A stretch of 64,000 nucleotides of DNA, taken from positions 6,696,001 through 6,760,000 of the forward strand of contig NZ_JBFOHP010000002.1 of NCBI RefSeq assembly GCF_040907265.1, given 5' to 3'. Origin of the DNA: Streptomyces sclerotialus (GTDB lineage Bacteria > Actinomycetota > Actinomycetes > Streptomycetales > Streptomycetaceae). This document shows, one piece after another, positions 31,544 to 52,996 of the stretch. The translations under genes and the position numbers were made by a program. Within the stretch, counting starts at the first letter, position 1. Each line of letters opens with the position of its first letter. The notes below the pieces were generated by a model. The model was not told the DNA's origin and made no database searches. It worked only from the letters and a program-made list of their open reading frames with translations.

Positions 31544-31694
31544 TCCGTACGGATTCGGTCCGTAGTACTTCCTCGTGCGGACAAGCGCTGCTACGTTCCC
31601 CTCGAAAGCCCGGCGAGACGGTGTGCGGTTTCCCGCCAACTCCCGCCGGTGGCTCTCGATGACGGTCTATGCCGAGGACGGCTGGAGGGGCGGC

Positions 31695-32885: not shown

Positions 32886-32891
32886 GTCATG

Positions 32892-32916
32892 TCCCCGGCA
32901 CCGCAGGGACCGGGGA
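32892..32916 (+). terminator. hairpin after the ROK gene
   Basis: Perfect 7-base arms TCCCCGG (32892-32898) and CCGGGGA (32910-32916) seven bases after the ROK stop codon; probably separates the regulator transcript from the ABC operon. Confidence 0.45.
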
Positions 32917-32956
32917 AGCACCGCCGCACCACCGCCGTACCGCCTCCGCTCCACCT

Positions 32957-32968
32957 GTGCACGTGCAC
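32957..32968 (+). promoter_or_regulatory. 12-base palindrome in the ABC-operon promoter region
   Basis: GTGCACGTGCAC is a perfect palindrome 125 bases before the start of the ATPase gene, inside a ~200-base intergenic region that has no gene. Candidate operator. Confidence 0.4.
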
Positions 32969-33092
32969 CACCTCTGCGCCATCACTGCACTGTCTGAGTG
33001 ACGCATCGTCAGTTCGCGATGCCGCACGCCCGTACGCGCTCCGCCCTGATCCGCCCTGCCCGCTCGCCGGCGTACCGCCGAGGAGGCCCGCC

Positions 33093-36804: not shown

Positions 36805-36884
36805 CACGGAGCGCCCCGCCGGAGCCTCGTGAGCCCGGCCGCGCCCCGTACCCCCACACCTGACCACCACCGATGAGGTGATGC

Positions 36885-38057: not shown

Positions 38058-38071
38058 GGAGGTCCCGTACC

Positions 38072-39079
38072 GTGCCACGCCAGTTCACTCTCTTCACCGG
38101 TCAGTGGGCAGACCTCCCTCTGGAGGAGGTCTGCCGCATGGCTCGCGACTTCGGCTACGACGGGCTGGAACTCGCCTGCTGGGGCGACCACTTCGAGGTC
38201 GACAAGGCGCTCGCCGACCCCGCCTATCTCGACTCGCGCCACGCGCTGCTCGACAAGTACGGCCTCAAGTGCTGGGCGATCTCCAACCACCTGGTCGGCC
38301 AGGCGGTCTGCGACGCCATCATCGACGAGCGCCACGAGGCGATCCTGCCCGCCCGCATCTGGGGCGACGGCGAGGCCGAGGGCGTACGGCAGCGCGCCGC
38401 CGCCGAGATCAAGGACACGGCGCGCGCGGCCGCCGCGTTCGGCGTCGACACCGTCATCGGCTTCACCGGCTCGTCGATCTGGCACCTGGTCGCCATGTTC
38501 CCGCCGGCCCCCGAGGCGATGATCGAGCGCGGCTACGAGGACTTCGCCACGCGCTGGAACCCCATCCTCGACGTCTTCGACGCCGAAGGCGTCCGCTTCG
38601 CCCACGAGGTCCACCCGAGCGAGATCGCGTACGACTACTGGACCACCCACCGGGCCCTGGAAGCCGTCGGCCACCGGCCCGCCTTCGGCCTCAACTTCGA
38701 CCCCTCCCACTTCGTGTGGCAGGACCTGGACCCGGTCGCCTTCCTCTGGGACTTCCGCGACCGGATCTACCACGTCGACTGCAAGGAGGCCAGGAAGCGC
38801 CTGGACGGCCGCAACGGCCGGCTCGGCTCCCATCTCCCCTGGGGCGACCCGCGGCGCGGCTGGGACTTCGTCTCGGCCGGGCACGGCGACGTCCCGTGGG
38901 AGGACTGCTTCCGGATGCTGCGCTCGATCGGCTACGACGGGCCGGTGTCGGTGGAGTGGGAGGACGCGGGCATGGACCGCCGGCAGGGCGCTCCCGAGGC
39001 GCTGACCAGGCTCAAGGCGTACGACTACGAGCCGCCGACGGCGTCGTTCGACGCGGCGTTCGGCAGCTCGGACAGCTGA
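38072..39079 (+). CDS. sugar phosphate isomerase/epimerase (xylose isomerase-like TIM barrel)
   Basis: A 335-residue AP-endonuclease-2/xylose-isomerase-like TIM barrel. GTG at 38072 follows GAGGAGG. Metal-binding residues of this family are visible: Glu in [13 protein letters not shown], Asp/His in [13 protein letters not shown], His/Asp in [11 protein letters not shown], and Glu in [11 protein letters not shown]. Begins [33 protein letters not shown]. It follows the dehydrogenase by 14 bases, a pairing common in inositol and keto-sugar pathways, where it isomerises or cleaves the keto product. Confidence 0.92.
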
Positions 39080-39090
39080 CAGCTCGCCCT

Positions 39091-39121
39091 TCTTTGTCCT
39101 TCTGCGGGCAGAAGTACGTAC
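39091..39121 (+). promoter_or_regulatory. operator-like element before the sugar dehydrogenase gene
   Basis: CTTTGTCCT at 39092 is shared with the palindrome before the ROK gene; it runs into a perfect 7-base inverted repeat CTTCTGC-GG-GCAGAAG (39099-39114) and the palindrome GTACGTAC (39114-39121). In both places the block ends in a CGTAC motif. Confidence 0.45.
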
Positions 39122-39177
39122 CAGCGACTGCAAAGGTCTATCCGTAGCGAGCCGATGCGACTACCTTCGCCTCTTGT

Positions 39178-39197
39178 GTCACGTACACGTACATGAC
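39178..39197 (+). promoter_or_regulatory. 20-base imperfect palindrome
   Basis: GTCAcGTACacGTACaTGAC, 16 of 20 positions symmetrical, about 70 bases upstream of the secreted dehydrogenase start. A candidate second operator or activator site. Confidence 0.4.
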
Positions 39198-39268
39198 GGC
39201 TCGCACAGCGCACTGAACTCCCCAGCACCGCCCACCGCACGGCAATCGACCCGCCCGGGAGGCACCGC

Positions 39269-41722
39269 GTGCACAGAAGACGTCTCAGAATCCGCTCCGC
39301 ACTCGCACTCTTCGCCGGCGGCCTGCTCGCAGCCGGCTCGCTCTCGCTCGGCAGCACCCCCTCGGTCGCCGCCCCGGCCGCCGACGCGGCCCCGCTCGCC
39401 GAGGACTTCCAGCAGGTCACCCTCGCCAAGGGTGCGGCGGAGGTGGGCGAGCCCATGTCGCTCGCCGTCCTCCCCGACCGCTCCGTCCTGCACACCTCCC
39501 GCGACGGCACGCTCCGGCTGACCAACGCCGCCGGTGACACCAAGGTCGCCGGCAAGCTGCCCGTCTACACCCACGACGAAGAGGGCCTCCAGGGCGTCGG
39601 CGTCGACCCCGGCTTCAAGGACAACCGCTTCATCTACCTCTTCTACGCGCCCCCGCTGGACACCCCCGCGGGCGACGCGCCGGACAACGGCACCGCCGCC
39701 GACTTCGCCAAGTTCGACGGCGTGAACCGTCTCTCCCGCTTCGTCCTGAAGGCCGACGGCACGCTGGACACCGCCAGCGAGAAGAAGATCCTGGAGGTCG
39801 CCACCTCCCGCGGCACCTGCTGCCACGTCGGCGGCGACATCGACTTCGACGCGCAGGGCAACCTCTACCTCTCCACCGGCGACGACTCCAACCCGTTCTC
39901 CTCCGACGGCTACACGCCCATCGACGAGCGCGCCGACCGCAACCCCGCGTACGACGCCCAGCGCAGCTCCGGCAACACCAACGACCTGCGCGGCAAGATC
40001 CTGCGCATCAAGGTCAACGCCGACGGCTCGTACGACATCCCCGAGGGCAACCTCTTCGCGCCCGGCACCGAGAAGACCCGGCCAGAGATCTACGCCATGG
40101 GCTTCCGCAACCCCTTCCGGATGAGCGTCGACAAGACCACCGGCATCGTCTACGTCGGCGACTACGGTCCCGACGCTGGCGCCGCCAGCCCCACCCGCGG
40201 CCCGGCCGGCCAGGTCGAGTTCGCCCGTGTCACCAAGGCCGGCAACTACGGCTGGCCGTACTGCACCGGCGACAACGACGCCTACGTCGACTACGACTTC
40301 GCCACCGGCACCTCCGGCGAGCCCTTCGACTGCGCCGCGCCCAAGAACACCTCGCCGCACAACACCGGCCTGACCGACCTGCCCCCGGCCCAGCCCGCCT
40401 GGATCCCGTACGACAACGACTCCGTACCGGAGTTCGGCAGCGGCTCGGAGTCCCCGATGGCCGGCCCGGTCTACCGCTACGACGCCGCGTCGGACTCCAA
40501 GGTGAAGTTCCCCGAGTCCTACGACGGTGACTTCTTCGCCGGGGAGTTCGGCCGGCAGTGGATCAAGCGGATCGAGCAGGACGCCGACGGCAAGGTCCAG
40601 TCGATCAACCCGGTCCCCTGGAGCGGCACCCAGATCATGGACATGTCCTTCGGCCCGGACGGCGCGCTGTACGTGCTGGACTACGGGCTGAGCTGGTTCG
40701 GCGGCGACGAGCACTCCGCGCTGTACCGCATCGAGAACGCCACCGACGGCCACTCGCCGGTCGCCGAGGCGAAGGTCGACCGCACCTCGGGCCAGGCGCC
40801 CCTGAAGGCGAAGTTCAGCGCGACCGCCACCGACCAGGACGGTGACGCGCTCACCTACGCCTGGGACTTCGGCGACGGCGCCACCTCCACGGCGCAGAAC
40901 CCCGCCCACACGTACAAGAAGAACGGCACCTACACGGCGACCGTCACCGCCAAGGACTCCTCCGGCCGCACCGGCTCGGCCAGCGTCCACCTGACCGTCG
41001 GCAACACCGCCCCCAAGGTCACGCTCGAACTCCCCGGTGACGGACAGCTCTTCACCTTCGGCGACAAGGTGCCCTTCAAGGTCAAGGTCACCGACCCCGA
41101 GGACGGGCAGATCGACTGCTCCAAGGTCACCGTCACCCACATCCTCGGCCACGACAACCACGGCCACGCCGTGACCTCGGCCAACGGCTGCGAGGGCACC
41201 ATCCAGACGCTGGCCGACGGCGAGCACGACCCCAACGCCAACATCTTCGGTGTCTTCGACGCCGAGTACACCGACAAGGGCGCGAACGGCCAGCCCGCGC
41301 TGACCACTCACGACCAGAACGTCACCCAGCCCAAGCACCGCCAGGCCGAGCACTTCAAGACGTCCAAGGGCGTCAAGGCGGTCGACCACACGCCGGCACA
41401 CGGCGGCAAGACCGTCGGTGACATCCACAACGGCGACTGGATCGGCTTCACCCCCTACATCGTCTCCAACGCCACCGAGCTGACCGCGCGGGTCGCCTCG
41501 GCCGGCGCCGGCGGCACGCTGGAGGTCCGCAGCGGCAAGCCCGACGGCAGGCTGCTCGGCACCGCCAAGGTGCCGGTGACCGGCGGCTGGGAGACGTACA
41601 CCGACGTCAGCACCGCCATCGCCAAGCCGCCCGCCGGGACGACGACGCTCTACCTCGTCTTCAAGGGCAGCAGCACGGGAGCGCTGTACGACGTGGACGA
41701 CTTCGAGATCACGACGAAGTAG
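39269..41722 (+). CDS. secreted glucose/sorbosone dehydrogenase-like protein with PKD and carbohydrate-binding domains
   Basis: An 817-residue secreted multidomain protein. Signal peptide to about residue 35 (RIRSALALFAGGLLAAGSLSL...AAPA). A GSDH-type quinoprotein β-propeller spans ~45-480 (SLAVLPDRSVLHTSRDG; GLQGVGVDPGFKDN; GGDIDFDAQGNLYLSTGDD; PEIYAMGFRNPFRMS; SFGPDGALYVLDYG). A PKD domain follows (~490-575; YAWDFGDGATSTAQNPAHTY), then a linker and a CBM6-like domain (~690-815; GDWIGFTPYIV; YLVFKGSSTGALYDVDDFEI). GTG start with GGGAGG. It probably oxidises sugar at the cell surface with PQQ or a haem acceptor. Confidence 0.9.
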   Translation: MHRRRLRIRSALALFAGGLLAAGSLSLGSTPSVAAPAADAAPLAEDFQQVTLAKGAAEVGEPMSLAVLPDRSVLHTSRDGTLRLTNAAGDTKVAGKLPVYTHDEEGLQGVGVDPGFKDNRFIYLFYAPPLDTPAGDAPDNGTAADFAKFDGVNRLSRFVLKADGTLDTASEKKILEVATSRGTCCHVGGDIDFDAQGNLYLSTGDDSNPFSSDGYTPIDERADRNPAYDAQRSSGNTNDLRGKILRIKVNADGSYDIPEGNLFAPGTEKTRPEIYAMGFRNPFRMSVDKTTGIVYVGDYGPDAGAASPTRGPAGQVEFARVTKAGNYGWPYCTGDNDAYVDYDFATGTSGEPFDCAAPKNTSPHNTGLTDLPPAQPAWIPYDNDSVPEFGSGSESPMAGPVYRYDAASDSKVKFPESYDGDFFAGEFGRQWIKRIEQDADGKVQSINPVPWSGTQIMDMSFGPDGALYVLDYGLSWFGGDEHSALYRIENATDGHSPVAEAKVDRTSGQAPLKAKFSATATDQDGDALTYAWDFGDGATSTAQNPAHTYKKNGTYTATVTAKDSSGRTGSASVHLTVGNTAPKVTLELPGDGQLFTFGDKVPFKVKVTDPEDGQIDCSKVTVTHILGHDNHGHAVTSANGCEGTIQTLADGEHDPNANIFGVFDAEYTDKGANGQPALTTHDQNVTQPKHRQAEHFKTSKGVKAVDHTPAHGGKTVGDIHNGDWIGFTPYIVSNATELTARVASAGAGGTLEVRSGKPDGRLLGTAKVPVTGGWETYTDVSTAIAKPPAGTTTLYLVFKGSSTGALYDVDDFEITTK

Positions 41723-41731
41723 CGCACGACC

Positions 41732-41789
41732 GGTGAGGGGCGGGCGGACCACCCGTAGGGCGGACCACCCGTAGCGTCCGCCCCTCACC
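41732..41789 (+). terminator. terminator after the dehydrogenase gene
   Basis: Perfect 12-base arms GGTGAGGGGCGG (41732-41743) and the complement (41778-41789), with a duplicated CGGACCACCCGTAG inside the 34-base loop, ten bases after the stop. Confidence 0.55.
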
Positions 41790-41793
41790 CGAT

Positions 41794-41840
41794 CACACCC
41801 GCTCAGCGGCCTTTCACCTGAACACACCCGCTCAGCGGCC
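41794..41840 (+). repeat. 18-base direct repeat in the intergenic region
   Basis: CACACCCGCTCAGCGGCC occurs at 41794-41811 and 41823-41840, 29 bases apart. It lies just before the ThuA-DUF1080 gene and may be regulatory or a duplicated piece of DNA. Confidence 0.7.
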
Positions 41841-41884
41841 CCTTGCCCAGCCACCCCCCCGCCGCTGGAGGAAGGACTCCGCAC

Positions 41885-43264
41885 ATGCACCCGCACCAGT
41901 CCACCGCGAGACGGCAGGCCGTACGGCGGCTCGGCGTCACCGCTGCCGCCGCCGCGGCCCTGCTCGCCACGACGGCGCTGCCCGGCGCCGCCGCACCGCA
42001 ACCGGGCGGGACGGCGGCCGACGGCGCCCGCGTCCTGGTCTTCTCCAAGACCGCCGGCTTCCGCCACGACTCGATCCCCGAGGGCATCGCCACGGTCAAG
42101 GACCTCGGCGCGCAGCACGGCTTCGCCGTCGACGCGACGGAGAACGCCGGCGCCTTCACGCCCGGCAACCTCGCCCGGTACGACGCGGTCGTGTGGCTGT
42201 CGACCACCGGAGACGTCCTCAACGCCACCCAACAGGCCGCGTTCGAGAAGTACATCGCAGCGGGCGGCGGCTACGTAGGCGTGCACGCGGCGGCCGACAC
42301 CGAGTACGACTGGCCCTTCTACGGCGGCCTGGCCGGCGCCTACTTCCAGTCGCACCCGGCGATCCAGCCCGCCACCGTACGCGTCGAGGACCGCGCCCAC
42401 CCCGCCACCGCACACCTCGCGGCGGCCTGGGACCGCACCGACGAGTGGTACAACTACCGCACCAACCCGCGCGAGCGGGCCCACGTCCTCGCCACCCTCG
42501 ACGAGACGACGTACACCGGCGGCACGATGGGCGACGACCACCCGCTCGCCTGGTGCCAGGAGTACCGCGGCGGCCGCGCCTTCTACACCGGCGCCGGCCA
42601 CACCAAGGAGTCCTACGCCGACCCAGCTTTCCGCACCCACCTCCTCGGCGGCATCCGCTACGCCGCGGGCCTCGCCCAGGCCGACTGCCGCCCGGAGCAG
42701 GGCTACACGCCGCTCTTCGACGGTACGCGGACGAGCCTGGAGGGCTGGAAGCAGGCGGGCCCCGGCTCCTTCACCCTGAACGAGGACGACGGGACGCTCA
42801 CCTCCGACGGTGGCATGGGCATGCTCTGGTACGCCGCCAAGGAGCAGCAGGCGTACTCGGTGAAGCTGGACTGGAAGATGGCGAGCGAGTCCGGGGACGA
42901 CAACTCCGGCGTCTACGTCGGCTTCCCGGCCTCCGACGACCCCTGGTCCGCGGTGAACAAGGGCTACGAGATCCAGATCGACGCCACCGACACCCCCGAC
43001 CACACCACCGGCTCCGTCTACGGCTTCAAGGCCGCGGACATCAAGGCCAGGGACGCGGCCCTGAACCCGCCGGGGGAGTGGAACACCTACGAGATCCGCG
43101 TCCAGGGCGAACGCCTGAAGGTGTTCCTCAACGGTCGCAAGATCAACGACTTCACCAACCGCGACCCGGCACGCTCCCTCCGCCAGGGCTACCTCGGCAT
43201 CCAGAACCACGGCCCCGAGGACAAGGTCGCGTTCCGGCACATCCGGATCAAGCCGCTGGGGTGA
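41885..43264 (+). CDS. secreted ThuA domain–DUF1080 (3-keto-glycoside hydrolase type) fusion
   Basis: A 459-residue secreted protein. Signal peptide with twin Arg and Ala-rich core (AVRRLGVTAAAAAALLATTALPGAAA). The N-terminal ThuA-like domain (~50-265): VLVFSKTAGFRHDSIPEG, GGYVGVHAAADTEYDWPFYGGLAGAYFQSHP, and RAFYTGAGHTKESY. The C-terminal DUF1080/3-keto-disaccharide hydrolase domain (~275-458): YTPLFDGTRTSLEGWK, SGDDNSGVYVGFP, GYEIQIDATDTPDHTTGSVYGF, NTYEIRVQGERLKVFLNGRKINDF. ATG 41885 follows GGAGGAAGGA. It likely acts on glycoside bonds made labile by C-3 oxidation, downstream of the dehydrogenases. Confidence 0.88.
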   Translation: MHPHQSTARRQAVRRLGVTAAAAAALLATTALPGAAAPQPGGTAADGARVLVFSKTAGFRHDSIPEGIATVKDLGAQHGFAVDATENAGAFTPGNLARYDAVVWLSTTGDVLNATQQAAFEKYIAAGGGYVGVHAAADTEYDWPFYGGLAGAYFQSHPAIQPATVRVEDRAHPATAHLAAAWDRTDEWYNYRTNPRERAHVLATLDETTYTGGTMGDDHPLAWCQEYRGGRAFYTGAGHTKESYADPAFRTHLLGGIRYAAGLAQADCRPEQGYTPLFDGTRTSLEGWKQAGPGSFTLNEDDGTLTSDGGMGMLWYAAKEQQAYSVKLDWKMASESGDDNSGVYVGFPASDDPWSAVNKGYEIQIDATDTPDHTTGSVYGFKAADIKARDAALNPPGEWNTYEIRVQGERLKVFLNGRKINDFTNRDPARSLRQGYLGIQNHGPEDKVAFRHIRIKPLG

Positions 43265-43399: not shown

Positions 43400-44719
43400 A
43401 TGGGTACGGATACGGGTGCGGCTGGTACGAGTGCGGCTGGTACGAATGCGGGAGATGGGACCGGCTCGGGTGGTGGCCGCACCGGGGTGTGGCTGATCGG
43501 CGCGCGGGGCTCGGTCGCCACGACCGTCGTCGCCGGCTGCGCGGCACTCGCCGCGGGCCTGCACGAGCCGACGGGCATGATCACCGAGACGGCGGCCTTC
43601 GCCGGCGTCCCGCTGCCACCGCTCGCCTCCCTGGTGTTCGGCGGCCACGACATCACCTCCTGCCCGCTGCCGAAACGCGCCGAACAGCTGGCCGCCGGTG
43701 GTGTCCTGCCGCACGGCCTGCCCCGCTCCGTACAGGCCGAACTCGCCGCCGCCGACGCCGAGATCCGCCCCGGCGGCCCGATGCCGGGCGACACCCGCGA
43801 CGACGACGCCCTGGTGGCCGCCTTCGCGACGGACCTGCGCACGTTCCGCCGCACCCACGCCCTGGACCGCGTGATCGTCATCAACGTCGCCTCCACGGAA
43901 GCCCTACCGGCACCGGTCTCCGGCCAGGCAGATGTGGGGCAGTCGGACGACGGTCAGCCGGGCTCCGGCGAGTCGGGCACCGGGCAGTGGGGCTCCGGTG
44001 AGTCGGGCACCGGCCGGCCGGACCCGGCGCCGTCGCGCGGGCAGCGGCCGCCCACTGACCACCTCCCCACCAGCTCCCTCTACGCGCTCGCCGCACTCCG
44101 TGCCGGCTGCCCGTACGTCAACTTCACCCCCTCCACCGGCCTGCACCACCCCCTCCTCCGGGACATGGCCCGCTGCAGCGGCCTCCCGTACGCGGGCCGC
44201 GACGGCAAGACCGGCCAGACCCTGCTGCGTTCCGTCCTCGCCCCGATGATGGCGCAGCGCGCGCTGACCGTACGGGCCTGGTCCGGCACGAACCTGCTCG
44301 GCGGCGGAGACGGCGCGGCACTCGCCGACCCGGCCGCGGCCGCCGCGAAGGAGGCGGGCAAGGCCGCCGTACTCCGCGACACCCTCGGCGAACTGCCGCC
44401 CGGCGACCTCCACATCGACAACGTCCCGGCACTGGGCGACTGGAAGACGGCCTGGGACCACATCGCCGTCGACGGCTTCCTCGGCAGCCGGGTGATCCTC
44501 CAGACCATCTGGCAGGGCTGCGACTCGGCCCTCGCCGCCCCGCTCGTCCTCGACCTGGCCCGCCTGGTGGCTGCCGCCCACGCGGCCGGCCTCAGCGGCC
44601 CGCTCCCCGGGCTCGGCTTCTACTTCAAGGACCCGGACGGTGGCCCGGCCGCCCTGGCCGACCAGTACACCGCCCTCACCACCACCTTCGCCGCCCGCCT
44701 GCGGGAGGCCCAAGCATGA
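43400..44719 (+). CDS. inositol-3-phosphate synthase-like protein (mIPS family), head of the ebo-type operon
   Basis: A 439-residue protein of the myo-inositol-1-phosphate synthase family, which cyclises glucose 6-phosphate with NAD+. The NAD motif VWLIGARGSVATTVV is at ~30-44; GRDGKTGQTLLRSVLAPMM near 267 carries the catalytic Lys; SGTNLLGGGDG and DNVPALGDWKTAWDHIA are family blocks. It is longer than needed because of a low-complexity start (Gly/Thr/Ala) and an insertion at ~170-216 made of two 30-base repeats (43960, 43990). GGGAGGG precedes ATG 43400. It takes the place where ebo operons usually carry the EboD cyclase. Confidence 0.85.
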   Translation: MGTDTGAAGTSAAGTNAGDGTGSGGGRTGVWLIGARGSVATTVVAGCAALAAGLHEPTGMITETAAFAGVPLPPLASLVFGGHDITSCPLPKRAEQLAAGGVLPHGLPRSVQAELAAADAEIRPGGPMPGDTRDDDALVAAFATDLRTFRRTHALDRVIVINVASTEALPAPVSGQADVGQSDDGQPGSGESGTGQWGSGESGTGRPDPAPSRGQRPPTDHLPTSSLYALAALRAGCPYVNFTPSTGLHHPLLRDMARCSGLPYAGRDGKTGQTLLRSVLAPMMAQRALTVRAWSGTNLLGGGDGAALADPAAAAAKEAGKAAVLRDTLGELPPGDLHIDNVPALGDWKTAWDHIAVDGFLGSRVILQTIWQGCDSALAAPLVLDLARLVAAAHAAGLSGPLPGLGFYFKDPDGGPAALADQYTALTTTFAARLREAQA

Positions 44720-46221
44720 TCCCCCTCCCGCCCCTCCCGAACTTCCTCCGCCCCTCCACCCCTCCCCGCCACCGCATGACCGACCTGAACACCCCCGGCG
44801 GCCTACCCCACGGCACCGGCCCCTTCCGGGGCCGCACACGCCGCCGGAACCGCTTGAGCCGTCGAAACCGCTCGAGCCATCGGGACCGCTTGAGCGGCTG
44901 GCTTCGAGGCACCCACGCCCATGCCGACCCGGCAGCCGAGGCGGACGGCGGCACTGGGACTAACGGCGGCACTGGGACTAACGGCGGCACCGGGACTGAC
45001 GGCGGCACCGGGTCGGACGCCACCCCGCACTCGACCTCGACCTCGGCATCGGTTCCGGCCTCGGTCCCGGTTTCGGGCCTGGCCCCGGTCTCGGCATCGG
45101 CCCGGACCCCGACCCGGCGAGCTGCCCGGCGAATTGCCCAGCGAACCGCCCGGCGAGCCGCCCGGCGAACCGTCCGGCGAGCCGCCCGACCCGGCAACGG
45201 GCCGACAGGACAAGCCGGCGAGGAGCCACGGCAGCCCTCCCACCCCCTCCGCGACTGGGCGGAGCTGCTCCGCGTCTCGGCGCCGGCCAGCGTCCCCGGC
45301 GACCTCCTCGCCGGTGCCGCGGCAGCCGGTCTGCGCCCCAACTCCCGTACCGCCCTTGCCACCCTCTCCTCCCTCTTCCTGTACGAAGCCGGCATGGCCC
45401 TGAACGACTGGGCCGACCGCGACATCGACGCCCTGGAACGCCCGCAGCGCCCCATCCCCTCAGGCCGCATCGCCCCCGGCGCGGCACTCGCCGCAGCCGG
45501 CGGCCTGACGGCTGCCGGTCTGGCGTGCGCGGCGGCTGCCGGCCGCCCGGCCCTGGCCACCGCCACCGCCCTGGCCGCCACCGTCTGGGCCTACGACCTG
45601 TACCTCAAGAACACCCCCGCCGGTCCCACAGCCATGGCCTGCGCCCGCACCCTCGACCTCCTCCAAGGCGCCATCGCCACCACCGACCCCGGCTCTCCCG
45701 CACGGCCTGCCGCTCTTCACGCCCTCCCCGCAGCCGCTCTGCTCGGCGCCCACACACTCACCATCACCACGGTCTCCCGCCGCGAGGCCCAAGGCTCTTC
45801 CTCCTCCCTGCCCCTTCTCTCCCTGGCCGCCGTCACCGCCCTCGCCCACACCACAGCGGCGCGTCCCCCCTTCCACCTCCGAACCCCGGGCTCACCCCCA
45901 GCCACCAAGCCCCCTGCCACCGCCCCCGCTCCCACACGGCCCACTCCCACACGGTTCACCTCCACACGGCCCACCTCCACCGCGCTGGTGACCCGGTTCC
46001 TCGCGGCCGGGTACGCCGCCACCGCCGCCCGCCCCCTCCTCGTCGCCACGCTCAACCCCTCGCCCCACTTCCTCCAGCGGGCCGTCGGCGGCGGCATCCG
46101 CGCGATGATCCCGCTACAGGCGGCCCTCGCCGCGCGAGCCGGTGCCCCGGCCACCGGAGCCGCGGTGCTCGCGCTCATCCCCGTCGCCCGTCGCCTGTCC
46201 CGGAAGGTCAGTCCGACATGA
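44716..46221 (+). CDS. eboC: UbiA-family prenyltransferase (EboC-like, SCO444-type)
   Basis: A 501-residue membrane prenyltransferase; only about residues 155-495 are the UbiA fold. The first Asp-rich motif NDWADRDID at ~235-243 is complete; the second is YDLYLKN at ~295-301 with the equivalent Asp. Six or more hydrophobic helices follow. The first 150 residues are species-specific low complexity: four exact-length 18-base repeats (44947-45018; GGTGTN units) and a run of 12-base repeats (about 45112-45190; TARR/AARR units). A Pro/Thr insertion interrupts the loop near 410-430. ATGA overlap with the preceding gene. Transfers an isoprenyl chain; the acceptor is unknown. Confidence 0.87.
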   Translation: MIPLPPLPNFLRPSTPPRHRMTDLNTPGGLPHGTGPFRGRTRRRNRLSRRNRSSHRDRLSGWLRGTHAHADPAAEADGGTGTNGGTGTNGGTGTDGGTGSDATPHSTSTSASVPASVPVSGLAPVSASARTPTRRAARRIAQRTARRAARRTVRRAARPGNGPTGQAGEEPRQPSHPLRDWAELLRVSAPASVPGDLLAGAAAAGLRPNSRTALATLSSLFLYEAGMALNDWADRDIDALERPQRPIPSGRIAPGAALAAAGGLTAAGLACAAAAGRPALATATALAATVWAYDLYLKNTPAGPTAMACARTLDLLQGAIATTDPGSPARPAALHALPAAALLGAHTLTITTVSRREAQGSSSSLPLLSLAAVTALAHTTAARPPFHLRTPGSPPATKPPATAPAPTRPTPTRFTSTRPTSTALVTRFLAAGYAATAARPLLVATLNPSPHFLQRAVGGGIRAMIPLQAALAARAGAPATGAAVLALIPVARRLSRKVSPT

Positions 46222-47534
46222 CCCCCACACCCCCGCGGCCCCCTGCCGAGGCCACCCGCCCCCTACGACCCCCGGCCCAGTCCACACCTCCGGACGCGTC
46301 GCCCTCGCCCCTCCCCACCCCCTCGGCGTCCGTCACCCCTTCGGCGTCCATCGCCCCTTCGGTGTCCGCCGTCCCTTCGGTGTCCGCCGTCCCCTCGACG
46401 TTCGCCGCCCCCTCGGCATCCGCCACTCCCGCCCCGCGACGACCCCTACGCCTCGCTTACGGGACCAACGGCCTCACCGACCTCCGCCTGACCGACGCCC
46501 TCTCCCTCCTCTCCGATCTCGGCTACGACGGCGTCGCGCTCACCCTCGACCACATGCACCTCGACCCCCTCGCCCCGGGCCTGGCCGCCCGCACCGCGCG
46601 AGTGGCCGAAGCGCTACGGGCCACGAACCTCGCCGTCGCCATCGAGACCGGCGCCCGCTATGTACTCGACCCGCGCCGCAAACACCACCCCACTCTCATC
46701 GACCCCGACCCGGAAGCCCGCGCGGCCCGCGCCGCCCTCCTACGCACCGCCGTCCGCATCGGCGCGGACCTCGGCGCCACCGCCGTCCACTGCTTCAGCG
46801 GCGTACGCGACCCCGGCAGCCCGGACCCCGACTCCTGGCAGCGCCTGGCCGCCGCCCTGGCCCCGGTAGCCGAGGCAGCCTCCGACGCCGGCCTGCCGCT
46901 CGCCGTCGAACCAGAACCCGGCCACCTCCTCTCCGACCTCGCCGGCTTCCACCGCCTCCGTACGCTCATGGGCGCGCCCGACCCGGACGTACTCGGGCTG
47001 ACCCTGGACATCGGCCACTGCCAGTGCCTGGAACCGCTGCCGCCCGCCGACTGCGTACGTGCCGCCGCCCCCTGGACCCGGCACGTCCAGCTGGAGGACA
47101 TGCGCCGTGGGGTCCACGAGCACCTCCCCTTCGGGGACGGCGAGATCGACTTCCCGCCCGTGCTCGCCGCCCTCCGCGATACCGCCTACCAGGGCCTGGT
47201 GAGCGTCGAGCTCCCCCGCCACTCCCACGCCGGCCCCACCCAGGCCCGCACCTCCCTCCACTACCTCCGCTCCCACCTCCCCAACTCCGCCGCCCCACCC
47301 CCAAATTCGACCCCACCCCCGCCCCCAGCCGCGGGCCCGGACCCGGCGACGGAGCCAGCCCCGCCCTCGAAAACGGCCCCGGCCTCGGAATCGGCCCCGC
47401 CCTCGGAATCGGCCCCGAGCCCAGCCCTGGGGTCGGCCCCAGCCCCGGGGTCGGCCCCGGCCGCGGGAGCCCCAGTGCGACCGCCAGGGCACCCGGCCGC
47501 CCCCGCCGGCCGCAACGGAGGTGTCCCGTGCTGA
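46218..47534 (+). CDS. sugar phosphate isomerase/epimerase, TIM barrel with low-complexity ends
   Basis: A 438-residue protein whose central ~75-350 is a xylose-isomerase-like TIM barrel: RLAYGTNGLTDLRLTDALSLLSDLGYDGVALTLDHMHLDP (in blocks), VAIETGARYVLDPRRKHHPTLID, LAVEPEPGHLLSDLAGF, LTLDIGHCQCLEP, HVQLEDMRRGVHEHLPFG and SVELPRHSHAG provide Glu/Asp/His metal ligands. The N-terminal ~70 residues are 18-base repeat-derived (PSASVTPSASIAPSVSAVPS type) and the C-terminal ~75 are Ala/Pro/Ser repeats. Starts ATGA-overlapping the UbiA gene; the EboA gene overlaps its end. It belongs to the operon but is not one of the six canonical Ebo proteins. Confidence 0.85.
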   Translation: MTPTPPRPPAEATRPLRPPAQSTPPDASPSPLPTPSASVTPSASIAPSVSAVPSVSAVPSTFAAPSASATPAPRRPLRLAYGTNGLTDLRLTDALSLLSDLGYDGVALTLDHMHLDPLAPGLAARTARVAEALRATNLAVAIETGARYVLDPRRKHHPTLIDPDPEARAARAALLRTAVRIGADLGATAVHCFSGVRDPGSPDPDSWQRLAAALAPVAEAASDAGLPLAVEPEPGHLLSDLAGFHRLRTLMGAPDPDVLGLTLDIGHCQCLEPLPPADCVRAAAPWTRHVQLEDMRRGVHEHLPFGDGEIDFPPVLAALRDTAYQGLVSVELPRHSHAGPTQARTSLHYLRSHLPNSAAPPPNSTPPPPPAAGPDPATEPAPPSKTAPASESAPPSESAPSPALGSAPAPGSAPAAGAPVRPPGHPAAPAGRNGGVPC

Positions 47535-48352
47535 CCCCCGACGACGCCTGGGTCGCTCGTCTCGACAAGGCGCTCCGAGACCGCCTCGGTGGCAGTGCCC
47601 GCGCCTGGCTGGACGAGGCCCTCGCCGAAGCCACCGCCCACGCCACCGGAGCCGCATCCCCCGTGGGAACCGCCCCCACCGCCGGAGTCACCCCCGCGGG
47701 CGCCGACACCGAAGTCACCCCGGCCCGCCCCGCCCCGAGGCCATCCACCCCTCCCGTATGGGAGATGCGGTTCGCGTCCGCCGGGCGGCACTGCGTGCGG
47801 AGGGAACCGCCGCATCATGCCGACCCGGAGGCCGCCGAGGTCGCGCGGGTGCTGATCCTGTGCGCCGCCCGAGCCGACGGCGCCACCGTCACCCGGCTGT
47901 ACGAGCACGGCACGGCCGCCGAACGCCGGGCCGTGCTCCTCGCACTGCCGCAGCTGCCGTTGGGTACGGAGGGCCGGGACGGCCTGCCGCTCGTCGAGGA
48001 CGCCTTGCGGACGAACGACACGCGGCTGGTCGCCGCGGCCGTGGGCCCGTACGCCGCACAGCACCTCGATGCGCACGCCTGGCGGCACGCCGTACTCAAG
48101 TGCCTGTTCACCGGCGTGTCGGTGGACGCCGTCACCGGTCTCGCCGAACGTTCCCGCGGTGACGCCGAACTCGCCCGCATGCTCGGCGACTACGCCCGTG
48201 AACGCACCTCGGCCGGTCGTCCCGTACCCGACGATCTCCCGCGCGTTCTCGCTCTCACCCAGCTGTCCCCCCTCTCTGCCGGCGCACCCGCCGGCCCGTC
48301 CGCCGGTCCCTCCACCGGCCCGTCCGCCATCCCGTCTTCCGAGGAGGCGTAA
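47528..48352 (+). CDS. eboA: EboA domain-containing protein
   Basis: A 274-residue protein of the EboA family. The diagnostic stretch is WRHAVLKCLFTGVSVDAVTGLAERSRGDAELARMLGDYARERTSAGRPVP at ~195-245 (in blocks), the KCLFTGVxxxxVxGLxER/…LARML.DYA.ER motif. Upstream conserved parts include MRFASAGRHCVRREPP and ARVLILCAARADG. Two low-complexity insertions (about 45-75 and the last 25 residues) are absent from the core. GTG at 47528 with GGAGG upstream. The function of EboA is not known; in cyanobacteria the ebo cluster is needed for periplasmic export of a scytonemin precursor. Confidence 0.88.
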   Translation: MLTPDDAWVARLDKALRDRLGGSARAWLDEALAEATAHATGAASPVGTAPTAGVTPAGADTEVTPARPAPRPSTPPVWEMRFASAGRHCVRREPPHHADPEAAEVARVLILCAARADGATVTRLYEHGTAAERRAVLLALPQLPLGTEGRDGLPLVEDALRTNDTRLVAAAVGPYAAQHLDAHAWRHAVLKCLFTGVSVDAVTGLAERSRGDAELARMLGDYARERTSAGRPVPDDLPRVLALTQLSPLSAGAPAGPSAGPSTGPSAIPSSEEA

Positions 48353-48357
48353 CCCCG

Positions 48358-49206
48358 ATGCGTATCTTCGATCCGCACATCCACATGACCTCCCGTACCA
48401 CCGACGACTACGAGGCCATGTACGCGGCGGGCGTGCGCGCCCTCGTCGAGCCGGCCTTCTGGCTGGGACAGCCACGGACCTCACCGGCGAGCTTCTTCGA
48501 CTACTTCGACTCCCTTCTCGGCTGGGAGCCCTTCCGGGCCGCCCAGCACGGCATCGCCCATCACTGCACCATCGCGCTCAACCCCAAAGAGGCGAACGAC
48601 CCCCGCTGTACCCCCGTCCTCGACGCCTTGCCCCGCTACCTCGTAAAAGACTCGGTCGTCGCCGTCGGCGAGATCGGCTACGACTCGATGACCCCGGCCG
48701 AGGACAATGCCCTGGCCGCTCAGCTCCAACTCGCCGTGGACCACGGCCTCCCGGCCCTCGTCCACACCCCCCACCGCGACAAGGCCGCCGGGCTCAAACG
48801 CACCCTCGACGTCCTGCGCGAATCCGACCTGCCCCCCGATCGCGTCGTCCTGGACCATCTCAATGAGACAACCGTAGGGGACGCCACTGACAGTGGCTGC
48901 TGGCTGGGCTTTTCCATCTATCCGGACACCAAGATGGACCCGGAGCGGATGGTGCGGATCCTCCGCGTGCACGGCACGGAGCGGGTGCTCGTGAACTCCG
49001 CGGCGGACTGGGGACGGAGCGACCCGCTCAAGACCCGTCACGTCGGCGAGGCCATGCTCGCCGCCGGCTTCTCCGACGACGACGTGGACCAGGTGCTGTG
49101 GCGCAACCCCGTCGCGTTCTACGGCCAGAGCGGCCGGCTGAACCTCGACATCGCCGACCCCGGCGCCCTGCACGAGGGCAACTCCATCCTCCGCGGCGGG
49201 GAATGA
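48358..49206 (+). CDS. eboB: TatD-family metal-dependent hydrolase (EboB-like)
   Basis: A 282-residue amidohydrolase-superfamily protein. FDPHIHMTSRTTDDYEAM opens with the D-x-H-x-H metal motif at residues 5-9; VGEIGYDSMTPAEDN has the Glu, LVHTPHRDK and VLDHLNE the further His ligands, and NSAADWGRSDPLK the final Asp. Residues HALNPKEANDPR show the long loop characteristic of EboB. ATG follows GAGGAGG. It is placed six bases after eboA, in the canonical neighbourhood. Substrate unknown; not a DNase by evidence here. Confidence 0.9.
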   Translation: MRIFDPHIHMTSRTTDDYEAMYAAGVRALVEPAFWLGQPRTSPASFFDYFDSLLGWEPFRAAQHGIAHHCTIALNPKEANDPRCTPVLDALPRYLVKDSVVAVGEIGYDSMTPAEDNALAAQLQLAVDHGLPALVHTPHRDKAAGLKRTLDVLRESDLPPDRVVLDHLNETTVGDATDSGCWLGFSIYPDTKMDPERMVRILRVHGTERVLVNSAADWGRSDPLKTRHVGEAMLAAGFSDDDVDQVLWRNPVAFYGQSGRLNLDIADPGALHEGNSILRGGE

Positions 49207-49221
49207 GGAGGCGGCGGACCG

Positions 49222-50478
49222 ATGCGCTTCCGGCACCCCGACGGCTCCACCGTCCACCTCGCGTACTGCACCAACGTCCATCCAGCCGAAACCCTGGACG
49301 GTGTACTCGCCCAACTCCGCGATCACTGCGAGCCCGTACGCAAACGGCTCGGCCGGGACCGGCTCGGCATCGGCCTGTGGCTGGCCCGCGCCGCGGCCCG
49401 CGTGCTGACCGTCGACCCCTCGGCGCTCCGGCTCCTGCGCAAGGAGCTGGACTCGCGCGGCCTGGAGGTCGTCACGCTCAACGGATTCCCGTACGAAGGG
49501 TTCGGCGACAGCGACGTCAAGTACCGGGTGTACCGCCCGGACTGGACCGAACCGGCCCGCCTGGAATACACCGCCGATCTCGCCCGGTTGCTCACCGCGC
49601 TGCTGCCCGACGACGTCGCTGAGGGCACCATCTCCACCCTTCCGCTCGCCTGGCGTACGAACTTCGACGACCACCGGCGCACGACCGCACTGGACGCGCT
49701 GCGCACGCTCGCCGCGCGCCTGGACGCGCTTCAGGACACCACTGGCCGCAGCGTCCGCGTGGGCCTGGAGCCGGAGCCGGGCTGCACGGTCGAGACCCTG
49801 GCCGATGCCCTCGACGCCCTGACCGGTGAGCCAGGCGTCCCCGCCCACCGCATCGGTGTCTGCGTCGACACCTGTCATCTGGCCACCTCCTTCGAAGAAC
49901 CGGGGCCGGCGCTGGACGCGCTGGACCGTGCGGGCATCCCCGTCGTCAAGAGCCAGCTGTCCGCCGCCCTGCACGCCGAGCACCCCGAACGTGCCGACGT
50001 ACGGGCCGCGCTCGCCGCCTTCGCCGAACCACGCTTCCTGCACCAGGCCCGCACCCGGACCGCCGACGGCGTGCTCCTCGCCACGGACGACCTCGACGAA
50101 GCCCTCGGCCGGCGAGAGGAAGCCCCCGGCCAGGAAGGCGGAGCCCTCGGCCAGGAAGGGGACGACGGGGCGCTAGGCCTGCCCACCGGATTGCCCACCG
50201 GGACGCCTTGGCGTGCCCACTTCCACGTGCCGCTCCACGCGCCGCCGCAGCCCCCGCTCACCTCCACCCTGCCGGTACTCCAGGACACCCTCGCCCGCCT
50301 CGTCGGCCCGGCCGCACCGCCACGCACCCATCACCTGGAGGTCGAGACCTACACCTGGCAGGCCCTGCCGCCCGAGCTGCGACCGCGCACCCGCGCCCGG
50401 CTCGCCGACGGCATCGCCGCCGAACTCGCCCTCGCCCGCGACCTGCTCACCGACCTCGGCCTCAAGGAACTGCCATGA
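49222..50478 (+). CDS. eboE: metabolite traffic protein EboE (xylose isomerase-like TIM barrel)
   Basis: A 418-residue TIM barrel matching EboE. VHLAYCTNVHPAETLDGVL is the hallmark start; VVTLNGFPYEGFGDSDVKYRVYRPDW, ISTLPLAWRTNF, VGLEPEPGCTVET, CVDTCHLATSFEEP and HFHVPLHAPPQP, LEVETYTW provide the metal-binding Glu/Asp/His set. An inserted low-complexity repeat (about residues 293-325, Gly/Glu/Gln/Ala units) breaks the loop before the HFHVPLH segment. It starts 15 bases after eboB (GAGGAGG) and overlaps the next gene by four bases. Confidence 0.9.
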   Translation: MRFRHPDGSTVHLAYCTNVHPAETLDGVLAQLRDHCEPVRKRLGRDRLGIGLWLARAAARVLTVDPSALRLLRKELDSRGLEVVTLNGFPYEGFGDSDVKYRVYRPDWTEPARLEYTADLARLLTALLPDDVAEGTISTLPLAWRTNFDDHRRTTALDALRTLAARLDALQDTTGRSVRVGLEPEPGCTVETLADALDALTGEPGVPAHRIGVCVDTCHLATSFEEPGPALDALDRAGIPVVKSQLSAALHAEHPERADVRAALAAFAEPRFLHQARTRTADGVLLATDDLDEALGRREEAPGQEGGALGQEGDDGALGLPTGLPTGTPWRAHFHVPLHAPPQPPLTSTLPVLQDTLARLVGPAAPPRTHHLEVETYTWQALPPELRPRTRARLADGIAAELALARDLLTDLGLKELP

Positions 50479-51905
50479 CCGCGCACGAGAGCAGCACCGG
50501 CGCCACCGCGGAGCCCCCGGCCGACGCGTCACCGCCGCAGCCCCTCCTGGTCCTCGACGTCGTCGGCCTCACCCCCCGGCTCCTCGACCACATGCCGCAC
50601 CTCAAGGCGCTGGCGACAGGCGGCTCGTACGTACCGCTGCGTACCGTCCTGCCGGCCGTCACCTGCACCGTCCAGTCGACGTTCCTCACCGGCGCACTGC
50701 CCTCCCAGCACGGCATCGTCGGCAACGGCTGGTACTTCCGTGACGTGGGTGAGGTGCACCTCTGGCGGCAGCACAACGCCCTCGTCGGCGGCGACAAACT
50801 CTGGGACGCGGCCCGCCGCGCCCACCCCGGCTACACCGTCGCCAACGTCTGCTGGTGGTACGCCATGGGCGCGGACGTCGACTGGACCGTCACTCCTCGG
50901 CCCATCTACTACGCCGACGGCCGCAAGGAACCCGACTGCTACACCCGGCCGCCCGCCCTCCACGACGAACTCACCGAACTGCTCGGTCCCTTCCCGCTCT
51001 TCACCTACTGGGGGCCCACGGCCTCCATCACCTCCTCCCGGTGGATCACCGAAGCCACCCGTCATCTCCTGCGTACTCGCCACCCCGACCTCACCCTCAG
51101 CTACCTTCCGCATCTCGACTACGACCTGCAGCGGTACGGACCCGACGACCCCCGCTCGCACGCGGCCGCCGCCGAACTCGACACCGTCATAGCCCCCCTC
51201 CTCGACGACGCCCGCTCGGCCGGCGTCACCGTCGTCGCCCTCTCCGAGTACGGCATCACCCGCGCCCGCCGCCCCGTCGACATCAACCGCGCACTGCGCC
51301 GCGCCGGTCTGCTGGAGGTACACACCCAGGACGGGATGGAGTACCTCGACCCGACCGCGTCCCGTGCGTTCGCCGTCGCCGACCACCAGATCGCGCACGT
51401 CTACGTCCGCCGTCCCGAAGACCTCGACGCGACCCGGGAGGCCCTGGCGGACCTGCCGGGAATCGCCGAACTCCTCGACGACGCGGGGAAGAAGCAGCAC
51501 GGACTGGACCACCCGCGCGCCGGCGAACTCGTCGCCGTCGCCGATCCCGACGCGTGGTTCACGTACTACTACTGGCTCGACGACGAGCGCGCACCGGACT
51601 TCGCGCGCCTGGTCGAGATCCACCGCAAGCCCGGCTACGACCCCGCCGAGCTCTTCATGGACCCGCGCGACCCCTACGTACGGCTACGCGCCGCCACCGC
51701 GCTGGCCCGCAAGAAGACCGGCATGCGTTACCGCATGGCCGTCGTCCCCCTCGACCCCGAGCCCGTGCGCGGCAGTCACGGACGTATCCCGGACCACGAG
51801 GACGACGGGCCCGTCCTGATCTGCTCCACCGCAGGCACGCTCACCACCCCCTTCGCCGCGACCGACGTGAAGTCCTTGCTCCTCAAGCTTGCCGCACGGC
51901 ACTGA
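50475..51905 (+). CDS. eboF: EboF-like nucleotide pyrophosphatase/phosphodiesterase
   Basis: A 476-residue alkaline-phosphatase-superfamily protein. VLDVVGLTPRLLDHMPHL carries the first metal Asp, VLPAVTCTVQSTFLTGALPSQHGI the Thr nucleophile block, YLPHLDYDLQRYGPDD a second metal Asp/His pair, and GSHGRIPDHEDDGP the late His. The usual S-D-H-G block appears as LSEYGIT, in line with EboF-type members, so activity may differ from NPP enzymes. No signal peptide. ATGA overlap with eboE; last gene of the coupled series. Confidence 0.87.
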   Translation: MTAHESSTGATAEPPADASPPQPLLVLDVVGLTPRLLDHMPHLKALATGGSYVPLRTVLPAVTCTVQSTFLTGALPSQHGIVGNGWYFRDVGEVHLWRQHNALVGGDKLWDAARRAHPGYTVANVCWWYAMGADVDWTVTPRPIYYADGRKEPDCYTRPPALHDELTELLGPFPLFTYWGPTASITSSRWITEATRHLLRTRHPDLTLSYLPHLDYDLQRYGPDDPRSHAAAAELDTVIAPLLDDARSAGVTVVALSEYGITRARRPVDINRALRRAGLLEVHTQDGMEYLDPTASRAFAVADHQIAHVYVRRPEDLDATREALADLPGIAELLDDAGKKQHGLDHPRAGELVAVADPDAWFTYYYWLDDERAPDFARLVEIHRKPGYDPAELFMDPRDPYVRLRAATALARKKTGMRYRMAVVPLDPEPVRGSHGRIPDHEDDGPVLICSTAGTLTTPFAATDVKSLLLKLAARH

Positions 51906-51925
51906 CAATCCACTCTGGAGCCGCA

Positions 51926-52996
51926 ATGACCAGCGACGTTCCCAACCCGCGCACCTCCCGCCACCCCGAGCTCGCCCGCACCCTCGCCCGCCGCGGGTTC
52001 CTCGGCGTGGCCGCCGGCGCCACCGCGGCAGCCGTCCTCGGCGCCTCGCAGGCACAGGCCGCACAGTCCGGCGGACGGCCCGGGCCCGCCACCGCGCACG
52101 GCCACCGCCCCGTCGTCCCGCCCGGCCGCCTCGGCATCCAGCTCTACACACTCCGCGACAAGACCTCGACCCTCGGCTTCGCCAGAGTCTTCGAAGAGCT
52201 GGCCCGCTACGGGTACGACGAGGTGGAGTTCGCCGGGTACACGCAGGGCTCGGCCGGGCCCATCAGCCTGGCCCAGCTGAAGCGCCTGATGAGGAACAAC
52301 GGGCTGCGCGGCATCGGCAGCCATGTGGGCTACTACTCGTCCGATCCGAACGCCTACACCTTCGCCACCAACCTCACGAAGGTGCTCGACGACGCCCAGG
52401 CCCTGGGCCTGCCGTACGTCGGCACGGCGTCCGGGCCCAACCGCTACGGGAACACCGTCGACGGCTGGAAGCGCGCCGCCGAGGACTTCAACACCTACGG
52501 AGCGGCGGCGAAGGCCCGCGGCATGCACTTCTACCAGCACAATCACGCGGAGGAGTTCGCCTTCGCCACGGACAACCCGAAGGTGCGGCTCTACGACGTA
52601 CTCCTGGCGGAGACCGACCCCGACCTCGTACGGCTGGAGATGGACATCTACTGGGCCTACGTCGCCCAGTACCGTTTCTCCAGGCGTCCGGACGGCACTC
52701 CCGCGCCCTTCGAGCCGCTCGACTACGTGCTCGCCGACCCGGCCCGCTACCCGCTCTTCCATGTGAAGGACGGCGAGCACGACGACGCGGAGCGCGACGG
52801 CTACCGGATGGTCGACGTGGGCGACGGCGACATCGACTACCGGCGCTTCATCAGCCGCGTGGGTCGCCTCCCCGGCCGGAAGTACCACAACTGGCTCGTC
52901 GAACGTGACGACGCCGTGGACCCCGCGGTCAACCCCGCAGGCTCCCTCACCACCGCCCGCCGCTCCGCTTCCCACCTCCGCCGCCTGCGGGGATAG
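51926..52996 (+). CDS. Tat-exported sugar phosphate isomerase/epimerase-like protein
   Basis: A 356-residue TIM barrel with a Tat signal: LARRGFLGVAAGATAAAVLGAS, ending at A-Q-A near residue 48. Core: LGIQLYTLRDKTSTLGFARVFEELARYGYDEVEFAGYTQ, GSHVGYYSS, HFYQHNHAEEF, VRLEMDIYWAYVAQ, LFHVKDGEHDDAER, and VGDGDIDYRRF contain the expected Glu/Asp/His ligands. An extracytoplasmic member of this family typically belongs to keto-sugar/glycoside breakdown systems. Starts 20 bases after eboF, so it is probably the operon's last gene and links the ebo and glycoside parts. Confidence 0.9.
   Translation: MTSDVPNPRTSRHPELARTLARRGFLGVAAGATAAAVLGASQAQAAQSGGRPGPATAHGHRPVVPPGRLGIQLYTLRDKTSTLGFARVFEELARYGYDEVEFAGYTQGSAGPISLAQLKRLMRNNGLRGIGSHVGYYSSDPNAYTFATNLTKVLDDAQALGLPYVGTASGPNRYGNTVDGWKRAAEDFNTYGAAAKARGMHFYQHNHAEEFAFATDNPKVRLYDVLLAETDPDLVRLEMDIYWAYVAQYRFSRRPDGTPAPFEPLDYVLADPARYPLFHVKDGEHDDAERDGYRMVDVGDGDIDYRRFISRVGRLPGRKYHNWLVERDDAVDPAVNPAGSLTTARRSASHLRRLRG

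Follow-up and report, generated by a model that had tools for sequence, protein, structure and literature searches.

The ebo operon, eboA to eboF, has been described from Bacteroidota, Cyanobacteriota and the plastids of eustigmatophyte algae (PMC5133447; PMC6282210). In the model set out in these accounts, EboD makes a cyclitol, EboC prenylates a substrate, and the resulting lipid helps a metabolite to cross the membrane; in Nostoc punctiforme, the operon is reported to be needed for scytonemin export (PMC6282210). The accessible text of the ebo literature cited here names no product of the operon. Here we describe an operon of this kind in a stretch of 64,000 nucleotides from Streptomyces sclerotialus (the window; contig NZ_JBFOHP010000002.1, positions 6,696,001 to 6,760,000 of the forward strand), which has no EboD and starts with a myo-inositol-phosphate synthase (mIPS). 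Our analysis points to a variant ebo operon, in which an archaeal-type mIPS, together with a TIM-barrel protein that we call TIM3, probably forms the cyclitol instead of the 3-dehydroquinate (DHQ) synthase-like EboD, a chemistry that we infer from the enzyme families involved. The NCBI annotation already names the parts singly, and what is new is the recognition of the variant, not of its genes. An mIPS-type ebo operon was not found described in the literature searched, whose coverage takes in few subscription papers, and the word 'inositol' is absent from the main text of both main ebo papers (PMC5133447; PMC6282210).

An ebo-type operon without EboD

Between 43400 and 51905, seven genes on the plus strand overlap or nearly touch one another:

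43400-44719, + strand: mIPS-family cyclase of 439 residues, the lead gene (PF07994, PF01658)
44716-46221, + strand: UbiA prenyltransferase of the SCO3242 family, in the EboC position (NF045897)
46218-47534, + strand: TIM3, a xylose-isomerase-like TIM barrel of the sugar isomerase/epimerase type (PF01261)
47528-48352, + strand: EboA-domain protein (NF035938)
48358-49206, + strand: EboB-like TatD hydrolase (PF01026)
49222-50478, + strand: EboE, a TIM barrel (NF035939)
50475-51905, + strand: EboF-like phosphodiesterase/pyrophosphatase (PF01663)

The mIPS/UbiA, UbiA/TIM3 and EboE/EboF junctions are ATGA overlaps, TIM3 and EboA share 7 nt (GTGCTGA), and gaps of 5 nt and 15 nt separate EboA from EboB and EboB from EboE; from these overlaps and short gaps, the ebo genes read as a single cluster. 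A gap of 20 nt lies between EboF and a further TIM-barrel gene, whose product has a twin-arginine translocation (Tat)-like signal. Families were called with Pfam and NCBIfam profile models, the bit scores being compared with the curated cut-off of each model. EboE (NF035939, 414 bits, cut-off 250), EboF (PF01663, 235 bits, cut-off 23) and the EboB-like TatD (PF01026, 47 bits, cut-off 27) are all assigned in this way, the TatD also by synteny; no Ebo-specific EboB model was matched in the Pfam and NCBIfam scans of this protein. EboA carries the NF035938 domain (164 bits, cut-off 50) and stays below the stricter family model NF035937 (60, cut-off 320). PF01261 matches TIM3 with 143 bits and the Tat TIM barrel with 63 bits.

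The genome of 8.28 Mb, assembled in two contigs at a completeness of 100, holds a sole PF01761 match, which lies 5 Mb from the operon and is AroB (TIGR01357, 344 bits over 305). With the EboD-type model NF004852 this AroB reaches 178, under the cut-off of 333, where the EboD of Azospirillum scores 571. We rejected an EboD hidden elsewhere in the genome on the same PF01761 search, its only DHQ-synthase match being AroB, and therefore file the operon as a variant rather than as a canonical ebo member. The initial annotation of this locus, made from the letters of the window, had listed a series of eight genes that starts with mIPS and ends with the Tat TIM barrel, and had noted that the window lacks EboD; all eight genes are present on the plus strand, and no EboD was found in the rest of the genome either.

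The operon mIPS

The lead enzyme exceeds the cut-offs of both mIPS models (PF07994, 130 bits over 25; PF01658, 97 bits over 27), while TIGR03450, the model of mycothiol-type INO1, gives it 20 bits against a cut-off of 638 and thus places it outside the INO1 type. A second mIPS of the genome reaches 725 bits with the latter model. INO1 being present as well, the mIPS of the operon is an additional enzyme of another kind. Its closest solved relative is the mIPS of Archaeoglobus fulgidus (AfMIPS; 1u1i; 183 bits, E 1.4e-52), for which the published account lists Lys274, Lys306, Lys367, Asn255 and Asp332 as important (PMC5614600). K317, K321, K349 and K410 of the operon enzyme align with K274, K278, K306 and K367 of AfMIPS. 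All four are identical in each of 19 operon mIPS, 18 from Actinomycetota and one from Gemmatirosa, and together with N298 they are invariant in an alignment of 24 sequences, the equivalent of AfMIPS Asn255 being kept.

Judging by these alignments, the catalytic lysines that the initial annotation had singled out as decisive for its claim are in place, and the operon mIPS looks like an intact enzyme, which does not by itself prove its substrate. We rejected a decayed paralogue, as the catalytic residues are kept. An AlphaFold model of the protein, of moderate quality (pLDDT 74.6), gives TM-scores of 0.56-0.64 to AfMIPS and was used for its fold alone; the best 30 rows of a Foldseek search with it are all mIPS-family structures, and the AfMIPS mutants K278A (3qvw), K367A and N255A are among the matches. 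A low-complexity, repeat-like insert occupies 43925-44050, about residues 176-217.

The prenyltransferase and TIM3

The UbiA protein matches NF045897, 'SCO3242 family prenyltransferase', with 370 bits over 260, and remains under the cut-off of the EboC model NF035940 (117 bits, cut-off 250), so that it is not an EboC at the level of models. However, two EboC proteins encoded beside EboD, those of Azospirillum (89) and Deinococcus (96), likewise fall below this cut-off; the model is therefore narrow, and little can be read from the failure of our UbiA to reach it. Each of the five bacterial ebo UbiA proteins scanned has the EboC and SCO3242 models as its top two, and the motif ND..D...D, which we take to be the prenyl-diphosphate-binding motif, is present in all 44 UbiA of both operon types. 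The family domain spans residues 180-501, the first 170 or so residues (44716-45225) forming a low-complexity extension. The 4-nt overlap with mIPS recurs in three annotated Streptomyces plasmid relatives, which supports the UbiA start at 44716 despite this odd N-terminus. The UbiA proteins of annotated relatives are shorter than that of the window.

TIM3 has low-complexity tails at both ends, and its model (pLDDT 70.7) was again used for the fold alone. Ketose-3-epimerases make up most of the first Foldseek rows, with a 3-keto-glucoside 4-epimerase and IolE among those further down. TIM3 stands beside mIPS in actinobacterial, gemmatimonadotal and haloarchaeal loci, and the swapped unit is two genes, mIPS and TIM3, not mIPS alone. 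The initial annotation was thus right to put mIPS in the place of EboD, but not in treating the swap as one of a single gene; the UbiA that it counted in the series belongs there, as a fit to the sister SCO3242 model rather than to that of EboC.

Distribution in Actinomycetota

In a sample of 296 genomes from across the phylum, the EboE model matched in 14 and exceeded its cut-off in 13. All 13 of the latter have an mIPS no more than 5 kb from an EboE (13 of 14 such loci), an association that is not due to chance. Among the 14 actinobacterial genomes with EboE matches, none has a DHQ-synthase match near any EboE, none has a match over the cut-off of the EboD model, and 13 have two mIPS matches. 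We read 19 actinobacterial loci, namely the 14 stretches with EboE matches and five chosen from 48 plasmid records. The EboB-like TatD is present in every one of them, and mIPS, UbiA, TIM3, EboA, EboB, EboE and EboF occur together in 17, so that where relatives with the same gene order and no mIPS would have spoken against the initial annotation, 17 of 19 loci hold mIPS instead. One genome (G279) has a broken EboE only, its mIPS lying elsewhere. In the genus of the window, EboE matched in 138 of 199 genomes and exceeded the cut-off in 135, which makes the operon a common, unexplained part of the biology of the genus, yet across the phylum only 13 of the 296 sampled genomes reach this level. 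Among named entries, the best protein matches are nearly all from Streptomyces.

In Streptomyces sp. NBC_00019, the mIPS-ebo operon is directly preceded by a gene of the ScyD/ScyE family (L079:2207-3406), with one for a multicopper oxidase (12188-13666) downstream, which recalls the link between ebo and scytonemin.

Gemmatimonadota and other bacteria

Five plasmid loci from Alphaproteobacteria, Betaproteobacteria and Deinococcus have EboD and lack mIPS and TIM3. For a broader view we took 80 EboE loci, the best 80 by similarity to the Gemmatirosa EboE of at least 572 confirmed in a scan with a mixed EboE alignment led by that sequence, among which the phyla are unevenly sampled. At least two further ebo genes are present in 66 of these 80, with EboD in 62 of the 66 and neither mIPS nor TIM3 in any; the count leaves out the 14 loci with fewer than two other ebo genes, of which five have EboD with EboE, while nine, including one that lies at a contig end, show no ebo gene but EboE. 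Two of the four loci of the 66 that lack EboD (L092, on a 5-kb contig, and L148) belong to genomes with an EboD elsewhere.

Among 249 genomes of Gemmatimonadota, EboE matched in three: G570 (taken as Gemmatirosa kalamazoonensis), G561 and G486. The Gemmatirosa locus contains mIPS, TIM3, UbiA, EboF, EboB and EboE, with no EboD in the stretch or its plasmid, and G561 has the same gene set with EboE broken in two frames. Neither assembly, their completeness being unstated, holds an EboD over the cut-off. The swap is thus consistent throughout the sampled Actinomycetota and these two Gemmatimonadota. In a tree of EboB, EboE and EboF, G570 and G561 are nested in the EboD types (support 100 and 96), next to the EboD-bearing G486 (92), and an unrooted UbiA tree, for which a motif filter had dropped all four UbiA proteins of the S. 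sclerotialus genome as outgroup candidates, groups all three (97). Since the loci with mIPS and TIM3 are nested in the EboD clade, the trees indicate that in Gemmatimonadota EboD most likely gave way to mIPS and TIM3.

On plasmids of Hymenobacter and Roseomonas, mIPS belongs to small clusters of similar content that include Gfo/Idh/MocA and YcaO-like genes (L188:4797-11041; L190:4638-10825), which possibly represent another mIPS pathway.

Haloarchaeal clusters and the direction of replacement

From haloarchaea we read four of at least six listed plasmid records. In three of them, from Halobaculum, Natronococcus and Halocatena, a cluster (L186:1103-7653; L187:933-7606; L192:2229-8530) combines mIPS, UbiA, at least two TIM3-like genes, an EboB-like TatD and an EboF-like phosphodiesterase; in the fourth, from Halomarina, mIPS has no UbiA, TIM3-like, EboB-like or EboF-like gene within 6 kb. 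Best identities to the bacterial ebo proteins are 42-46% for EboB, 38-43% for EboF and 31-33% for TIM3. EboA and EboD queries found no match in these clusters, and a separate EboE is lacking, EboE queries giving only weak matches to the TIM3-like genes, at best 43-57 bits where TIM3 queries reach 110-121. For the Halobaculum UbiA, the EboC model (178 bits) and the SCO3242 model (170 bits) lead, both under their cut-offs.

There is a serious chance, if a little short of even, that the mIPS form, shared by haloarchaea and Actinomycetota, is the older one, and that mIPS gave way to EboD in the common ancestor of all other bacteria with ebo, from which some Gemmatimonadota later reverted. The gene content of the haloarchaeal clusters favors this scenario, as does a tree of EboB, EboF and UbiA rooted on haloarchaea, in which the Actinomycetota clade (99) falls outside the EboD types, these together forming a group next to it (97). 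By contrast, an EboE tree whose root is a clade of five lone EboE-like genes (100/100) places Actinomycetota inside the EboD types (96/95), albeit on a stem 1.4 long and with four of the nine lone genes falling elsewhere. Moreover, with no EboA and no EboE of their own, the haloarchaeal clusters may have been assembled independently. In the mIPS tree, Actinomycetota (89/78), Gemmatimonadota (91/99) and haloarchaea (100/100) are separate groups. As the two rooted trees disagree, the order of events in Actinomycetota depends on the root. The non-homologous replacement proposed in the initial annotation is thus borne out as far as mIPS stands in the EboD slot, but that mIPS took over from EboD is well supported in Gemmatimonadota alone. 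The lone genes used as root (L132, L135, L117, L153 and L163) come from Actinomycetota and Pseudomonadota, with no other ebo genes in the stretches fetched.

Genomic neighborhood

Directly upstream of the operon, 31575-43264 holds genes of a sugar-uptake and 3-keto-sugar type: a ROK regulator, a sugar ATP-binding cassette transporter, a Gfo/Idh/MocA enzyme, a glucose/sorbosone dehydrogenase, a ThuA/3-keto-disaccharide hydrolase and, by eye, a TIM-barrel-like reading frame. The genes flanking the core are:

41843-43264, + strand: ThuA/3-keto-disaccharide hydrolase fusion with a signal-like start (by eye), upstream neighbor, not core (PF06283, PF06439)
51926-52996, + strand: Tat TIM barrel with a Tat-like signal (by eye), neighbor, not core (PF01261)

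The Tat TIM barrel adjoins EboF in only five of the 19 actinobacterial loci (L067-L071), one of these copies being only 37-38% identical, and the ThuA gene adjoins mIPS in L067, L069, L070 and L071. We rejected both as core members and regard them as lineage-specific neighbors, which trims the eight-gene operon first proposed to a core of seven. Among loci of at least 14 kb, a relative of the ThuA, dehydrogenase or Tat TIM-barrel genes occurs in 13 of 22 of the mIPS type versus nine of 54 of the EboD type, these nine all being dehydrogenases at 25-29% identity; this skew may reflect lineage or function.

Discussion

What can be proposed for the chemistry of this operon? The mIPS would convert glucose 6-phosphate to an inositol phosphate by NAD-dependent oxidation, enolisation, aldol closure and reduction. 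TIM3, which would contribute a further isomerase or epimerase reaction, and EboE would then adjust the ring or its keto form, the membrane-bound UbiA would join a prenyl chain to the cyclitol or its phosphate, EboF would remove or hydrolyse a phosphate, and EboA would be a scaffold for the complex at the membrane. This would yield an isoprenyl-cyclitol lipid, a carrier or helper in moving a metabolite from the cytoplasm to the outside, as ebo has been proposed to act in the export of scytonemin. Both the order of these steps and their outcome, an inositol-type prenyl lipid, are proposals drawn from sequence.

That the slot of EboD is filled by an unrelated cyclitol-making family, with the UbiA motif kept, argues that this slot really is one of cyclitol formation, and the evidence hints at an inositol-like ring in the product. 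More tentatively, and with the balance of our judgment on the other side, ebo could be a single isoprenyl-cyclitol lipid pathway with EboD or mIPS and TIM3 as interchangeable parts, of which the mIPS form of haloarchaea and Actinomycetota may be older and make a prenylated inositol. If this were true, the ebo pathway would have its roots in lipid chemistry of the archaeal type, and we would know which head group a bacterial lipid carrier bears.

Several observations weigh against a cyclitol formed by mIPS in place of EboD. The four lysines are kept in the INO1 of the genome too and hence mark intactness, not specificity. Within the genus of the window, a second ebo locus of genome G128 (L066:6664-12774) has UbiA, TIM3, EboA, EboB, EboE and EboF without mIPS. 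Two other loci, L099 and L120, from metagenome-assembled genomes titled Acetobacteraceae and Rhodospirillales, have neither an mIPS nor, in the assembly, an EboD over the cut-off, so that the loss of EboD need not mean its replacement; a further EboD loss or replacement is possible there. The metagenome-assembled genome G486 has its EboD locus and a second set of UbiA, mIPS and TIM3 on separate contigs, which makes the two forms exclusive per locus at most. Finally, UbiA enzymes of flavobacterial ebo clusters are reported to have farnesylated quinoline acids (PMC9235831), a result that gives no pointer to a cyclitol acceptor.

Some details of these loci may be added. In L099 and L120, the genes for EboE, EboC, EboA, EboB and EboF stand in a row. 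The surroundings of L066 include a reading frame that by eye resembles an inositol monophosphatase, and a Gfo/Idh/MocA relative. In G486, a contig end cuts UbiA on both sides, which made it seem possible that EboD and mIPS share one hybrid operon; we rejected this reading, as the two UbiA pieces overlap at residues 201-251 yet differ in sequence, and the contig ends have no exact overlap, so these are two genes or the bin may be mixed.

Of the remaining alternatives, the one that fares best, though we hold it unlikely, is that the mIPS relative makes another cyclitol, perhaps the product of EboD itself, from sedoheptulose 7-phosphate or fructose 6-phosphate. Ari2, named a five-membered-cyclitol-phosphate synthase, is indeed among the solved relatives, a further point against an inositol product, and the UbiA motif common to both operon types would suit a similar acceptor. 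Yet Ari2 is the more distant relative, at 38 bits versus 183 for AfMIPS, and the four lysines and the Asn255 equivalent of the latter are kept. Slightly less likely again is a supply function, in which mIPS would serve the general inositol pool and the ebo operons would have lost their cyclase step. Streptomyces need inositol phosphate for mycothiol and phosphatidylinositol, and the G128 copy without mIPS, like L099 and L120 without either cyclase, would fit this explanation; the genome has a separate, mycothiol-type INO1, however, 13 of the 14 genomes with EboE matches have two mIPS matches, and UbiA and TIM3 accompany the ebo mIPS across the differing gene orders of Actinomycetota, Gemmatimonadota and haloarchaea. 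A sugar-catabolism cluster with an incidental resemblance to ebo, as the regulator, transporter, Gfo/Idh/MocA, dehydrogenase and ThuA genes upstream might suggest, is highly improbable, given that EboA and EboE exceed curated cut-offs and that the core occurs with no ThuA, dehydrogenase or Tat TIM-barrel gene in the stretches read of L065, L074, L076, L079, L080, L081 and L088.

The ebo genes span several bacterial phyla and algal plastids and are needed for the export of a sunscreen precursor. Unlike EboD, mIPS comes from a family with a well-understood reaction, which makes the question of the ebo product directly testable in a tractable Streptomyces.

Comparison with known systems

The lead enzyme and AfMIPS have the lysines and the Asn255 equivalent in common, whereas the operon enzyme differs in its low-complexity insert and in sitting in an ebo-type operon. 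The assayed Ubi-297/EboC prenyltransferases belong to the same UbiA superfamily and are likewise members of ebo clusters; as described, they come from Maribacter, Zobellia and Algoriphagus and preferred the farnesylation of quinolines (PMC9235831). In Streptomyces coelicolor, which we compare by its published description alone, the 'putative transferase' SCO3242, whose tag appears in the NCBIfam model matched here, is numbered next to the 'myo-inositol phosphate synthase' SCO3243; both fall within the published limits of the calcium-dependent-antibiotic (CDA) cluster, SCO3210-SCO3249, and that account, in its available text, records them as antibiotic-cluster genes only, with no mention of ebo (PMC3610822). 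With the canonical eboA-F operon, as described (PMC5133447; PMC6282210), our locus shares EboA, the EboB-type TatD, a UbiA with ND..D...D, EboE and EboF, all on one strand. It differs in having mIPS and TIM3 instead of EboD, in a UbiA that fits the sister SCO3242 model, and in its gene order, which is mIPS-UbiA-TIM3-A-B-E-F where the canonical operon has A-B-C-D-E-F.

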